Of a stretch of 60,334 nt of DNA, positions 10,383-31,552 are shown one piece after another. A program made the translations under genes and the position numbers. The notes under the pieces were generated by a model. That model made no database searches. It saw only the letters and a program-made list of their open reading frames with translations, and was not told where the DNA came from. The stretch lies in the NCBI GenBank assembly GCA_012523975.1, contig JAAYSF010000042.1:1-60334 (forward strand), given 5' to 3'. The DNA comes from Veillonellaceae bacterium. GTDB lineage: Bacteria > Bacillota > Negativicutes > JAAYSF01. Position 1 is the stretch's first letter; each line of letters starts with the position of its first letter.

Positions 10383-10558
10383 AGGCTAAAACTCCTTTTA
10401 TGTAAAGTGTCTTTAAGATTCGTTATTAGATCGTAAAATCCTGTATAATTAAGCCAGTTCTTACAAAATGAGGACATAGGTCCTAAGGCTCTAGTTTAGA
10501 TCCTTAAAAGCAGGGAATTAGCCACATGATAGAGAAAACATAAGTTCGGGTGAAGAAT

Positions 10559-11716
10559 ATGCAACGCTGGATTATTCATATCGATATGGATGCCTTCTTT
10601 GCGGCAGTTGAGCAGCGCGACAATCCTGAATTCAGAGGTAAACCGGTAATTATCGGCGGTTTAAGCGGCCGCGGGGTAGTCGCAACAGCATCGTACGAGG
10701 CCAGAAAATTTGGCGTGCGGTCGGCTATGCCAATGGTTGAAGCTCGGCGGCGCTGTCCGCAGGGGATGTTTCTGAATTGTAATCATAATAAATATAGCGC
10801 TGTTTCCCAAGAGATTATGGCAATTCTGAGTGACTTTTCGCCGCTTATCGAGCCGTTGTCGCTAGATGAAGCCTTCTTGGATATGACGGGAACCGAGTGG
10901 TTGTTTCCTGATATAGTAGATGCGGCGAAGCAAATAAAAGCCCGCATAAAAGCCGAGGTCGGTCTGGTAGCCTCGGCCGGAATAGCGCCTAATAAATTTT
11001 TGGCTAAATTAGCGTCAGATTTAAAAAAGCCAGACGGATTATATATTATAAGGCCGGGTGAAGAACAAACCGCTATCGCTCACTTGCCGGTTGGCAGGCT
11101 GTGGGGCGTTGGCGAGGCGACGGCCAGCATTCTCACCAAACTGGGGATAGCTACCATCGGCCAATTAGCCCAAACCGACTTGAGCGTACTCAGGAAACAT
11201 TGCGGCAATTTTGCCGCTGACCTTCAAAGGCTGGCGCACGGTATCGATAACCGGCCGGTTATTGCCGAACAAGAGCCTAAATCAATCGGCAAGGAAACAA
11301 CCTATGATACCGATTTGGTAAGTCCCAAGCAAGTTGAAGCGGAACTTCTCCGTTTAGCCGAAAAGGTGGGGTGGCGGCTGAGGCGTTACGGCTATGCGGC
11401 GCGGACTATTACGGTAAAGATTCGCTTTGCATCGTTTCGCACGATTACGCGCAGTAAAACATTGGCTGATCCAACTAATTTCGATGACGTGATATTTTCG
11501 GTTGCCCAGGAAATTTGGCATAATACGACCATGACCGAAGGAGTACGATTAATAGGAATAACCGCAGCCAACCTTCAGGCCGGCTGCGGTCAAATGTCAT
11601 TATTCAGCGAGGAAAATGATAAGCGTCAAGCCATCTATCAAACGGTAGATAAGCTTAAAGCCAAGTTCGGTGAAACTATTATTACTAAAGGCCGGATAAA
11701 TCGGGACGAAGGTTAG
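10559..11716 (+). CDS. dinB: DNA polymerase IV (Y family)
   Basis: A translesion DNA polymerase of 385 residues. The catalytic palm motif IHIDMDAFFAAVEQR is at the N-terminus, the second acidic motif LSLDEAFLDMT is near residue 105, then helix-hairpin-helix and little-finger domains. It lacks the beta-clamp motif variants that I could identify with certainty. Two starts are possible: GTG at 10550, or ATG at 10559 with GGTGA about seven bases upstream. The family's usual beginning (MxRWIIHIDMD) favours 10559. It is divergent from the chemoreceptor gene and overlaps the stop of the convergent DUF1450 gene by 4 bases. I saw no LexA-type CGAAC-N4-GTTCG box upstream. Confidence 0.95.
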   Translation: MQRWIIHIDMDAFFAAVEQRDNPEFRGKPVIIGGLSGRGVVATASYEARKFGVRSAMPMVEARRRCPQGMFLNCNHNKYSAVSQEIMAILSDFSPLIEPLSLDEAFLDMTGTEWLFPDIVDAAKQIKARIKAEVGLVASAGIAPNKFLAKLASDLKKPDGLYIIRPGEEQTAIAHLPVGRLWGVGEATASILTKLGIATIGQLAQTDLSVLRKHCGNFAADLQRLAHGIDNRPVIAEQEPKSIGKETTYDTDLVSPKQVEAELLRLAEKVGWRLRRYGYAARTITVKIRFASFRTITRSKTLADPTNFDDVIFSVAQEIWHNTTMTEGVRLIGITAANLQAGCGQMSLFSEENDKRQAIYQTVDKLKAKFGETIITKGRINRDEG

Positions 11717-12549: not shown

Positions 12550-13680
12550 ATGATCAACCGTAAACGAATGTTGGACGAATTTTTTGAGCTGGTTCAAATA
12601 ACCTGCACCAGCGGCAAAGAGCGGGAGGTAGCAGACTTAGTCAAGCAGCGGTTGGAGGATTTAGGACTTGAGGTAACTGAAGATAAGGCCGGTGAAAAAA
12701 TAGGGGGGAATACCGGCAATATTCTAGGATACCTAAAAGGGACTGCCGCCGGCGCGCCGGTGATAATGCTAAGCGCTCATTTAGATAGTGTTGAGCCATG
12801 CAGCGGCGTTAAACCGCAGCTGAAAGACGGGGTAATTACTTCGGCCGGTGATACAATTTTAGGTTCAGATGATAAGGCCGGAGTGGCATCAATATTGGAG
12901 GCTTTACGGATTGTTACCGAAAAGCAAATACCGCATGGTGATGTGCAAGTTGTTTTTACTGTTCAGGAAGAAAGCGGACTATGCGGGTCTAAAAATATTG
13001 ACCGCGAATGGATTAAGGCTGATTTTGCTTATGCGCTTGATTCAAGCGGCGAGCCCGGCAAGATTATTATTAAGGCTCCGGGGGAAAACACAATTAAGGT
13101 TACCGTCAAAGGTAAAACTGCCCACGCCGGTATCGCTCCTGAAGAAGGCATAAATGCCATAGTAGTCGCCGGCAAGGCTTTGGCTCAACTCAAACAGGGG
13201 CGGCTTGATGAGGAAACAACGGCTAATGTCGGCATAATAAAAGGCGGCCAGGCAACCAATGTTGTACCTGACCGGGTGGAGATTGTCTGCGAGGCTCGCA
13301 GTCATAATATGGACAAATTACAAAAGGTCACTCAGGATATGAAAGCGACTTTTGAGCGAGTAGCCCAAGAAAATGGCGCCAAAGCAGAAGTTGAAATCAT
13401 TGAGGACTTCGTGGCCTACGCCTTGAAGGAAGATTCGCAGCCGGTAGCCTTGGCGGTCAAAGCGGCTGCAAGCATCAACCTTAAGCCCCAGCTTGAAGCG
13501 ACAGGTGGCGGCAGTGATGCCAATGTGTTTAACAGTTTTGGAATACCAACAGCCGTAATGGGCATGGGCATGAGCAAGGTGCATACAACTGAGGAATATA
13601 TTAAGGAAGAAGAATTATACCAAGGGGCCGAACTTGCAGTAGCCTTAATTAAGGCGGCCGCCGAAACTAATAAGGCATAA
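12550..13680 (+). CDS. M20 family peptidase, PepT-like
   Basis: A 376-residue cytoplasmic di-zinc aminopeptidase, close to the tripeptidase T-like/YqjE group. Metal ligands are visible in order: His in LSAHLDSVEP (about residue 78), bridging Asp in ILGSDDKAG, the catalytic Glu pair in VQEESGLCGS, Asp in FAYALDSSGEPG and His near the C-terminus in MSKVHTTEEYI. The dimerisation domain lies between residues about 180 and 295 (KTAHAGIAPEEGINA). The ATG is preceded by GGAGGTG. Monocistronic; it likely recycles short peptides. Confidence 0.93.
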   Translation: MINRKRMLDEFFELVQITCTSGKEREVADLVKQRLEDLGLEVTEDKAGEKIGGNTGNILGYLKGTAAGAPVIMLSAHLDSVEPCSGVKPQLKDGVITSAGDTILGSDDKAGVASILEALRIVTEKQIPHGDVQVVFTVQEESGLCGSKNIDREWIKADFAYALDSSGEPGKIIIKAPGENTIKVTVKGKTAHAGIAPEEGINAIVVAGKALAQLKQGRLDEETTANVGIIKGGQATNVVPDRVEIVCEARSHNMDKLQKVTQDMKATFERVAQENGAKAEVEIIEDFVAYALKEDSQPVALAVKAAASINLKPQLEATGGGSDANVFNSFGIPTAVMGMGMSKVHTTEEYIKEEELYQGAELAVALIKAAAETNKA

Positions 13681-13718: not shown

Positions 13719-14789
13719 TTACAAGATGGATTTTTTCCTAAGTAAGCGGCACAATTGATATACCAAACCAGTATAAATCCCGCCGGTTTCCAAAAGCGCA
13801 GCACGGATGGCCTGTTCAGCGGGGCGTTCGGTTTTCGGATCGGAAAGATACATTGCCAATAGTCCGTGAATGATAGTTGTTGTGAATATTGGTTCGGGGA
13901 TATACTCAGCCTGCGCCAAAGCCTGCTTGGTAAAAAGTTCTAGGCGGGTTAGCGTTTCTTGGTGGTCTTTATAGTAAGCAACAAAATTAAGATCGCCGTT
14001 CGCCAGGTCTTCGGCAGCATCAATAAAATAGTCGAGCAGAATGTGGAGCCCGTTAATCCAAGGGAAATAGGCGCTGGCAAACTTGGCAGCATCGGAAGGT
14101 TTAAGATTGGGATCGCTGGCGGCGGCGCACAACATAAACATCCCTAAAGTAGAGCCAGTGGCTGCCGCAAACTCCCAATTGCTGATTTCAGGATAGTTTC
14201 TAAGGTAAGGGTCTATCCAGGTCTTCATCTTGTCCTCCCGGATAGCAAGGTCAAGGTGTTTATAGGTCTGTAATTCACTATATAAAGAAGCAAATTTTAA
14301 CGCGTCAGCCTTTACTAGGTGATAGGAAGGCAGCTTAGCTACTTCTTGACGGCAAGTTTTTATAAGTTCTTTAAGATAACCGCCATCATCTTTAAAGGGG
14401 TAAAACCGGTAGTAGTCATTATCACGACTGCCCGGGTCGAGTGCATCGGTCATGGCCAGATGAAGCTGGCGAAATGCCAGTTCATCGGCAACGCCGGCCC
14501 GGTCACATAGATTGTCAAGATAGTCGCTGATGGTCTGAAGGGCAACGACTAGCCGTACGAAATCCGGAGTTGATACTCCGCGGTATAAACTATAGACGCT
14601 GCCGCCCTGACAATGAAACTTTTTATCCCTGATGCTGGCAAGAGCCTGTTCGCGCAGTTCATGACAGCCATTTTGTTCGGCGTAATGGCGCCAATGGGCA
14701 AGCTCGGCGTTCACCAAGGGGAATACTTGACGGACAAACTTTGTTATCAAGCTCAAACTAGCAGCAGAGTTTTTAAGTGAAGCAAACAT
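13719..14789 (-). CDS. ytpB: DUF2600 family, YtpB-like large terpene synthase
   Basis: A 356-residue, mostly helical protein of the DUF2600 family. The characterised member, B. subtilis YtpB, converts a heptaprenyl diphosphate into tetraprenyl-beta-curcumene (class IB terpene cyclase). The diagnostic Asp-rich motifs are present: DYLDNLCDR (about residue 90) and DYFIDAAED (about residue 250). Length and conserved SLYRGVSTPDFVRLVVALQ segment match. The ATG has AGGAGG upstream. No squalene-hopene-type cyclase or prenyl synthase gene lies nearby, so the final product is unknown. It stands alone as a single transcription unit. Confidence 0.85.
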   Translation of the reverse strand: MFASLKNSAASLSLITKFVRQVFPLVNAELAHWRHYAEQNGCHELREQALASIRDKKFHCQGGSVYSLYRGVSTPDFVRLVVALQTISDYLDNLCDRAGVADELAFRQLHLAMTDALDPGSRDNDYYRFYPFKDDGGYLKELIKTCRQEVAKLPSYHLVKADALKFASLYSELQTYKHLDLAIREDKMKTWIDPYLRNYPEISNWEFAAATGSTLGMFMLCAAASDPNLKPSDAAKFASAYFPWINGLHILLDYFIDAAEDLANGDLNFVAYYKDHQETLTRLELFTKQALAQAEYIPEPIFTTTIIHGLLAMYLSDPKTERPAEQAIRAALLETGGIYTGLVYQLCRLLRKKSIL

Positions 14790-14991: not shown

Positions 14992-15279
14992 ATGGCAGAT
15001 GTATATCGCGTAGCTGTTCATTATGGCAATGACAATGGTTTTGTTGAATACAACCTTGAAACTAAGACGATTAAAGTTAAACTAGCTAATGATGCTAAAC
15101 GTCGCGAGGCTGAGGAGTATCTGGCCAAGGAACATACTATCGCCGTTGCGGGCGCGGATATTCGTGATTTTGAAGCTCGACAGGTTATAGCGTCGCAAGA
15201 TGTTGAAAGCTTTAAGCTAGCGCTTACCCGGATGTGGGAAGCCACTGACGTTCATGTTGACTGGAGCCGTCCGGCTTAG
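14992..15279 (+). CDS. Small conserved protein of unknown function
   Basis: A 95-residue soluble protein, charged, with predicted strand-strand-helix order (YRVAVHYG, VEYNLETKTIKVKL, then a Lys/Glu-rich helix) and a C-terminal helix ending in VDWSRPA. I do not recognise the family. The start is the ATG at 14992 with AAAGGTGG eight bases upstream; an in-frame GTG at 14980 is part of that SD. It has its own promoter and strong terminator, so it is a monocistronic gene next to the DnaA-box cluster. Confidence 0.75.
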   Translation: MADVYRVAVHYGNDNGFVEYNLETKTIKVKLANDAKRREAEEYLAKEHTIAVAGADIRDFEARQVIASQDVESFKLALTRMWEATDVHVDWSRPA

Positions 15280-15291
15280 CTGGCGATTTAT

Positions 15292-15325
15292 AAAGATACC
15301 TAGTCCAAAAGGACTAGGTATCTTT
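15292..15325 (+). terminator. Terminator of the 95-residue protein gene
   Basis: A perfect 15-bp stem with AAAA loop (15292-15306 / 15311-15325) followed by ATTTCC. Confidence 0.88.
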
Positions 15326-15377
15326 ATTTCCATGGCACACACCTCACGAAAGGCTTATTAGTATTCCGCACAACCGT

Positions 15378-15621
15378 TGTGGATAAGTTTACGCGGTAAA
15401 CTGCCGCAATAGGGGCTTCCTATCAGCCAGAAGGCCTAGGACAGGAGTCTTATCCACAAAAGTATCCACAAAAACCACTTATCTGTGGATAAGTTAACAA
15501 TTCCATCGTGGATATTGTGGAAAAATCCTGTGAAAACCGATAAAAGTTAGTCACTGGCTGTGGATAAAATTGTGGAAATGTCGGTAAATCATTTTCGTTG
15601 CGGTATTTTCGTTGTGGATAG
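15378..15621. other. DnaA-box cluster
   Basis: Four perfect DnaA boxes (TTATCCACA or its complement TGTGGATAA) lie at 15378-15386, 15450-15458, 15484-15492 and 15559-15567. Near-matches with one difference are at 15462-15470, 15516-15524 and 15613-15621, and weaker ones at 15507-15515 and 15571-15579. Boxes occur on both strands. The 245-bp block has no gene and is followed by an AT-rich stretch (15622-15720). Such density is typical of replication origins or of DnaA-titrating/regulatory clusters. No dnaA, dnaN, rpmH or gyrase gene is present in the window. Confidence 0.85.
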
Positions 15622-15662
15622 GCTGTTGATTATAACCAAGTTACATTAGAACAAGTTAATGC

Positions 15663-15691
15663 TTGACTTTAAATAGTGGGTGTGATAAAAT
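15663..15691 (+). promoter_or_regulatory. Promoter of tRNA-Arg(ACG)
   Basis: TTGACT (15663-15668), 17-nt spacer, TAAAAT (15686-15691), about 30 bases before the mature tRNA. Confidence 0.75.
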
Positions 15692-15719
15692 GCTTTTTGT
15701 TCACCAAATAAATATATAT

Positions 15720-15796
15720 GACTCCGTAGCTCAGCTGGATAGAGCGTTTGACTACGAATCAAAAGGTCGCAGGTTCGAATCCTGCCGGGGTCGCCA
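15720..15796 (+). tRNA. tRNA-Arg (anticodon ACG), CCA encoded
   Basis: A 77-nt cloverleaf. Acceptor stem GACTCCG/CGGGGTC (one G-U pair), D-arm GTAGCTCAGCTGGATAGAGC, anticodon loop CTACGAA giving ACG, T-arm with GGTTCGAATCC, discriminator G and an encoded CCA end. Confidence 0.97.
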
Positions 15797-30821: not shown

Positions 30822-31075
30822 AAAAAAACCCCTATTGACACATTGTCAATAGGGGCGATATTATCGCGGTACCACCCTATATTAGGCTCATTACTCAGTA
30901 AGTTATAAAAACTGACTGATAACCTTAACGCGGCTGCACGCTTTTGCCTAAAATAGGATTACTCTCAGCAAAAGAATTCATGGGTGAGCTTCGCAAAAAT
31001 ATCTGTACCGGTTTTCACCAACCACCGGCTCTCTGCAACAAAAAATAGATTTGCTTTTTCCCAATCATCATTTTT
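30822..31075 (-). ncRNA. T-box leader, probable Phe specifier (UUC)
   Basis: On the minus strand the leader shows the conserved stem-I elements AGAGAGCC and GGTGGTTGGTGAAAACC, and the T-box core AGGGTGGTACCGCG (30865-30878). It ends in a terminator with a 12-bp stem (30829-30840 / 30844-30855) followed by T7. The specifier, read as the triplet after the loop-E GAA, is UUC (30974-30976, minus), i.e. phenylalanine. The triplet choice is less certain than in the neighbouring Trp T-box. Uncharged tRNA-Phe should allow read-through into the YkvI-family gene. Confidence 0.9.
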
Positions 31076-31131
31076 TACAAATTAAAGTTTTCACGTTATA
31101 TACGCCTGCAGGACGAAGTAACTTTAATACA

Positions 31132-31159
31132 TTTTTACACTTATCGACGACTTTGTCAA
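31132..31159 (-). promoter_or_regulatory. Promoter of the YkvI T-box unit
   Basis: On the minus strand a perfect TTGACA (31154-31159), 16-nt spacer and TAAAAA (31132-31137), upstream of the T-box leader. Confidence 0.6.
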
Positions 31160-31223
31160 TGGAAAAGTGTAACAATGTAAACTTTTTAGAAAATAATCCG
31201 GAAATATTTAATTTTTGAGGGGA

Positions 31224-31253
31224 TTGACAATTCTGTGTAACTATTGTTATACT
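31224..31253 (+). promoter_or_regulatory. Promoter of the Trp T-box unit
   Basis: A perfect TTGACA (31224-31229), 18-nt spacer, TATACT (31248-31253). It is divergent from the YkvI promoter about 65 bases away. Confidence 0.8.
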
Positions 31254-31279
31254 CTGGTTAAACAGATAGCTTTAATATT

Positions 31280-31552
31280 GATGAATAGGAAGAGTACACA
31301 TGAAAAGAGAGTTACAGCGAGCCAATGGCAGTGGGAGATTGGCACTGATCGTCATGTCGAATGGACCTAGGAGATGCAGCCCGAGCTGATTTTGGTGTAG
31401 GCGCTGTCGGAATCTTCCGCCGTTATCAGGAAGCGGGTATCGGACTATTGGTCCTGTACTTAGTCAAGCCGGGCTGTTTTGCATAGCCAATTAGGGTGGC
31501 ACCGCGGGTTAACCCCTCGTCCCTTGAACTTATTCTTGGGATGAGGGGTTTT
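31280..31552 (+). ncRNA. T-box leader, Trp specifier (UGG)
   Basis: Stem I has AGTA on the 5' side of the loop-E motif and GAA-TGG on the 3' side, giving specifier UGG (31362-31364), tryptophan. The AGAGAG element is at about 31306. The T-box core AGGGTGGCACCGCGGGT is at 31493-31509, followed by a terminator stem (AACCCCTCGTCCC pairing with GGGATGAGGGGTT) and T6 ending near 31552. Low Trp charging should switch on the downstream UbiD and TrpB genes. Confidence 0.94.

Follow-up and report, generated by a model that had tools for sequence, protein, structure and literature searches.

A cluster of DnaA boxes at positions 15378-15621 of the window is probably a conserved, origin-proximal DnaA-binding locus of the Negativicutes that lies outside oriC and, judging from its sequence and its distribution among genomes, is a candidate site for the titration or regulation of DnaA. 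The window is the whole stretch of DNA analysed; it is contig C42, 60,334 bases long, one of the 99 contigs that make up a draft genome of 2.47 Mb (G000). The likeliest version of this function would be plain titration, as the DnaA-box clusters of B. subtilis are read. Such a locus is ordinary in its general idea and unusual in its conservation, its fixed geometry and its partner gene, and no description of this Negativicutes locus was found in the literature searched. The earlier note had offered two options, an oriC from which dnaA has moved and a titration or regulatory cluster outside oriC; the first falls on the evidence below, and the second is the best-supported class given the conservation in relatives, with a function that we infer.

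The densest group of perfect DnaA boxes in the draft genome

All seven boxes counted in the earlier note, four perfect and three with one mismatch within 245 bp, were found again. The perfect boxes are located at 15378-15386 (TTATCCACA, minus strand), 15450-15458 (TTATCCACA, plus strand), 15484-15492 (minus strand, reading TGTGGATAA on the plus strand) and 15559-15567 (minus strand). Those with one mismatch are GTATCCACA at 15462-15470 (plus strand), TTTTCCACA at 15516-15524 (minus strand) and CTATCCACA at 15613-15621 (minus strand). Counted over the entire window, boxes with no more than one mismatch are about as frequent as expected (58 seen, 60 expected). Their density here is another matter: in 300 first-order Markov simulations, no 245-bp stretch had more than three boxes or more than two perfect ones, compared with the seven and four observed. 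The perfect box TTATCCACA occurs 30 times in the draft genome (22 times for the reversed control), and only three sites genome-wide have at least two perfect copies within 400 bp: the window cluster (four), the oriC/dnaA region on contig C62 (three) and a site on contig C75 (two). No other place in the draft genome, the dnaA locus included, has perfect boxes as densely grouped as the window cluster. The AT-rich stretch described beside the boxes is also present (about 70-74% A+T at 15631-15700), and the promoter of a tRNA-Arg gene lies inside it.

Elsewhere in the window, two divergent T-box leaders stand back to back, one per strand, at 30848-31527, and there are two c-di-GMP-I riboswitches (22687 and 27565) and one TPP riboswitch (56114).

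The cluster is not the main origin

The window contains no dnaA gene, as the earlier note stated. We located the gene on contig C62, where direct reading of the sequence reveals a standard rpmH-oriC-dnaA locus, with rpmH and a large group of boxes ahead of dnaA. GC skew, calculated per contig in this genome, goes from about -0.1 to +0.15 at dnaA. In the window the skew is close to 0 over the leftmost 10 kb and about +0.1 beyond roughly that point. The strand switch that had drawn attention to the cluster is a real local change but a weak one, with two plus-strand genes (10550-11716 and 12550-13680) to the left of the boxes, and the change in skew is not centred on the cluster.

The skew was also followed in two closed relatives (G058 and G018). 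The 20-kb pieces used, some contiguous and some sampled, start 300-390 kb before dnaA and end 100 kb after it. All pieces as far as dnaA have a negative skew, among them those that bear the orthologous cluster (167 kb upstream of dnaA in G058 and 304 kb upstream in G018), and the skew is positive from dnaA on. The GC-skew check suggested with the original claim thus places the switch at dnaA in all three genomes, away from the cluster, and the reading of the cluster as the main origin in a genome with a relocated dnaA is already refuted by these data. The cluster lies neither at the skew switch nor beside the dnaA and rpmH genes that accompany the boxes of oriC in this lineage. Widening the idea to a chromosomal, second or relic origin would accommodate the dense consensus boxes beside A+T-rich DNA and the local change in gene direction; we nevertheless consider it extremely unlikely, given that the same genome has a separate rpmH-oriC-dnaA locus, where there are boxes and the skew flips, and that the skew keeps its sign across the orthologous cluster in both closed relatives. 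The lack of a DnaA-trio run in the cluster is a weak point against an origin and does not discriminate, because this simple search for repeats was just as negative at the true oriC.

A separate observation concerns dnaA in a closed genome of family f15 (G060), which has two strong Bac_DnaA matches about 2.5 kb apart at the genome start (C1:172-654 and C1:3123-3608), suggesting two dnaA-like genes side by side.

A three-box core with fixed spacing

Three of the boxes form a core (15450..15492, plus strand) that reads, in order, TTATCCACA, 3 bp, nTATCCACA, 13 bp and TGTGGATAA. The first two boxes are a head-to-tail pair with a 3-bp gap, and the pair faces an opposed third box across 13 bp (box starts at 0 (+), 12 (+) and 34 (-)). 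Four of 60 relatives have a DnaA-box cluster near a DUF2600 gene (G001, G037, G003 and G015), and all four share the exact core of the window, with start-to-start distances of 12 and 22 bp. Boxes outside the core keep their places as well: the perfect box upstream of the core has a counterpart at -70 to -73 in G001 and G037, the TTTTCCACA box, 66 bp past the core start, is conserved in position in G001, G037 and G011, and the perfect box 109 bp past the core start corresponds to a minus-strand box at about +108 to +111 in many relatives.

We scanned 380 Negativicutes genomes for the core, allowing up to two mismatches and using the reversed pattern as a control. The core was matched in 88 genomes, representing 45 of 102 genera, and the control in none. 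Nearly all genomes of the deep-branching families have it, whereas most of those in families f12, f15, f25, f4, f34 and f35 do not. Clusters of f4 and f15 keep many boxes but not the 12/22 core. A wider scan of the phylum matched 15 of 398 genomes, two of them from the Negativicutes and most of the others from a single family; of the 384 sampled genomes that do not belong to the class, 13 have the core. The loci in the spacing comparison were picked by the pattern, so the spacing seen there is partly by construction. The unbiased evidence for the core spacing is provided by the four loci found through their neighbour and by a locus of family f29 (L252) that was found via the small gene described below, lies below the scan threshold and has the same 12/22 triple.

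These comparisons of sequence argue that the cluster is conserved as an architecture, beyond a loose collection of boxes. Lack of conservation in close relatives had been named in advance among the grounds for abandoning the earlier claim, and the cluster proved to be conserved in many families of the Negativicutes. It is missing while the small gene is kept in most f12 genomes, in one sampled f25 genus and in others; its absence from most f12 and other genomes means that it is dispensable in evolution.

Some loci have tandem duplicate cores, about 157-231 bp apart, upstream of tRNA-Arg (L126, L157, L110 and L148; genomes G163, G003 and G018, with a degenerate case in G006). In the phylum scan, most matching genomes of family f46 (L173-L180) have a different, internally conserved core, TTACCCACAGATTTATCCACA...TGTGAATAA. 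A search for a covarying dyad beyond the boxes gave no clear signal, with a flank complementarity of 47% at the first two bases that then declines towards background, and the unit of a relative had no match in plasmid records.

Position of the core relative to dnaA

Distances were calculated in a frame in which dnaA reads on the plus strand. Eleven genomes from the deep families, closed or near-closed, have the core 105-409 kb upstream of dnaA, always on the minus strand (G007 -294, G025 -273, G055 -237, G034 -262, G058 -167, G018 -304, G006 -409, G048 -299, G319 -379, G318 -105 and G315 -348 kb), which corresponds to 2.0 to 11.3% of the chromosome. In one genus, with f11 genomes, the core is on the other arm (+307 and +316 kb). 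In f4 the gene-linked cluster or its gene is found at -148 kb, or in the opposite orientation at +106 to +192 kb, an arrangement that looks like an inversion around the origin. The small gene is also origin-proximal in genomes that lack the cluster, and the position of the cluster may partly reflect shared synteny.

A linked small protein and a tRNA-Arg gene

Just upstream of the cluster is an uncharacterised gene for a protein of about 95 amino acids (14992..15279, plus strand). The gene is present in 313 of the 380 class genomes, single-copy in nearly all of them, and precedes the core in about 35 of 42 cluster loci, usually at 4-114 bp. Among 141 distinct loci of the small gene, a box cluster lies within 400 bp downstream in 48 and upstream in none, counts that come from a set drawn mostly from families without the cluster, with many of the 48 fetched because of the core. 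Searches of named genomes returned the linked protein from Negativicutes throughout (Sporomusa, Anaerospora, Propionispira, Selenomonas and Anaerovibrio), and the class is assigned to the Negativicutes on this basis.

The small protein has no Pfam or NCBIfam match. In an alignment of the family (A2), residues G, L, W, V, W and S are invariant, and the motif VDWSRP marks the C-terminus. The AlphaFold2 model predicts a confident alpha/beta fold (pLDDT 92.9), for which comparison with the PDB returned no usable relative (best E 0.5 with Foldseek, best Z 3.5 with VIA-align). Clear structural matches were limited to predicted proteins of phages, which have no assigned function, the best being from Bacillus phage Shanette (E 3e-8). 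A weaker predicted structural relative is found in phage G. The family phrog_26403, likewise without assigned function, is weakly matched by 22 of 25 members of the small-protein family, and tblastn of the small protein in phage records found nothing.

Downstream of the cluster is a co-directional tRNA-Arg gene with an ACG anticodon (15720..15796, plus strand). Its sigma-70-type promoter (TTGACT-17-TAAAAT, 15663..15691, plus strand) begins 41 bp past the last box and is conserved in the alignment with G001, G037 and G015. In most loci a co-directional tRNA-Arg (ACG or CCT) follows, usually 100-400 bp past the core. Between the small gene and the cluster, a hairpin with a T-rich tail (15290..15327, plus strand) is a probable intrinsic terminator (-25.9 kcal/mol, z -9.7; none of 200 shuffles was as stable).

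This arrangement raises the possibility that the main role of DnaA at the locus is to regulate transcription of tRNA-Arg or of the small gene, tying them to replication status, as the co-directional tRNA after the core and the small gene directly upstream in most loci would suggest. However, the boxes of the window are downstream of the small gene, behind the strong terminator-like hairpin, and they do not overlap the tRNA promoter. With the hairpin before them and the promoter 41 bp beyond, their placement does not suit classical repression of either neighbour. The cluster also persists with the gene and without the tRNA in families f4 and f29 and in part of f15, and with the tRNA and without a detectable small gene in family f6. 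Moreover, the draft genome has two identical tRNA-Arg genes, the second of which (C73) has no cluster. We therefore give little credence to a mainly transcriptional role. As the cluster survives the loss of the tRNA and of the small gene, it is not a passive appendage of either but an entity of its own.

Two simpler associations were rejected. The DUF2600 gene (13719..14789, minus strand) is a looser syntenic neighbour that is several kb away in many relatives, in which the small gene and tRNA-Arg still accompany the cluster, and this excludes a linkage merely to DUF2600. Nor does every tRNA-Arg (ACG) appear to have boxes: when the 800 bp ahead of the match were inspected in 30 tRNA-matched loci (L182-L211), a cluster was seen only in that of the window (L202). 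Several of these loci are on the opposite strand, so that the other flank is the relevant one, and for them the comparison covers total box counts in that flank (0-6).

A proposed role in limiting initiation

As a titration or regulatory locus, the cluster might work as follows. DnaA would bind the core tightly, cooperatively on the tandem pair, and the opposed box would close the complex. The locus would be copied soon after initiation because it lies 2-11% of the chromosome from dnaA. The doubled sites would then withdraw free DnaA, or change its nucleotide state, and in either way make it less likely that oriC fires again too early.

Initiation in Bacillota is thought to be controlled mainly by proteins that act on DnaA at oriC, with the clusters outside oriC regarded as redundant sinks (PMC5295017, PMC13220808). 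A single locus found across many families of a class, with fixed geometry, a near-constant distance from dnaA and an unannotated partner protein, suggests site-based control of DnaA in Bacillota. The locus narrows the targets for mutation to a few bases and points to one small protein, and Sporomusa is among the cultivable genera in which both could be studied.

Comparison with known DnaA-regulating sites

In E. coli, datA and the DARS sites act via the nucleotide of DnaA (PMC8682772, PMC10950094). The Negativicutes core could likewise be a switch of nucleotide state, resetting ADP-DnaA as DARS does or stimulating ATP hydrolysis as datA does, in which case the geometry would matter and not only the number of boxes. 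Fixed gaps of 3 and 13 bp do exceed what titration needs. Like datA, the locus is a box cluster outside oriC and not far from it, with a conserved relative distance and a tRNA gene nearby (PMC4585315, PMC10950094). However, datA lies downstream of a tRNA operon, whose transcription reads through it, and needs IHF, whereas the tRNA gene of the window lies downstream of the boxes and is transcribed away from them.

The DARS2 core, which we located from published primers (PMC4585315) and read from L166, has the same topology as the core of the window. The cores of DARS1 and DARS2 have three boxes, with a 3-bp tandem pair that faces an opposed third, as in the window, and a head-to-head mechanism has been described (PMC8682772). 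The facing gap is 5 bp in DARS2 compared with 13 bp here, and the two do not differ by a whole helical turn; because of this gap we do not file the locus as a DARS. The boxes of the window locus are nearly all consensus, and DARS2 is further equipped with accessory sites for Fis and IHF (PMC8682772). B. subtilis is reported to have no IHF, datA or DARS (PMC13220808), and the f4 and f15 clusters hold many boxes with no 12/22 core. On balance, we regard a nucleotide-state switch as unlikely. Unlikely, too, is the fuller proposal that the core is a dedicated DnaA-regulating nucleoprotein module of the Negativicutes, a Bacillota counterpart of DARS or datA that acts on the state of DnaA as well as on how much of it is free, with the linked protein of about 95 amino acids as a cofactor or a regulator of DnaA.

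Titration, the reading that we prefer, has its model in the DnaA-box clusters of B. subtilis. Deletion of six of these clusters leads to early initiation, as related in two papers that cite Okumura et al. 2012 (PMC13220808, PMC5295017). High-affinity DnaA sites in B. subtilis include those near ywcI/vpr, gcp, ywlC, yqeG/sda and yydA (PMC4447404). In the draft genome, the third group of boxes (C75:48140-48280, equivalent to L286:2140-2290) has two perfect TTATCCACA and near-boxes just 3' of tsaD/gcp (L286:2278-3393, minus strand). B. subtilis likewise has a high-affinity DnaA site after gcp (PMC4447404), and the C75 group may therefore be conserved throughout the Bacillota. The window cluster resembles the B. 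subtilis clusters in that a number of consensus boxes lie between genes and away from oriC, also in a member of the Bacillota. It differs from them in its neighbours, as none of the listed B. subtilis sites is beside tRNA-Arg or the small gene (PMC4447404), and in that the Negativicutes have a single conserved locus, whose three-box core is fixed and whose distance from dnaA is conserved.
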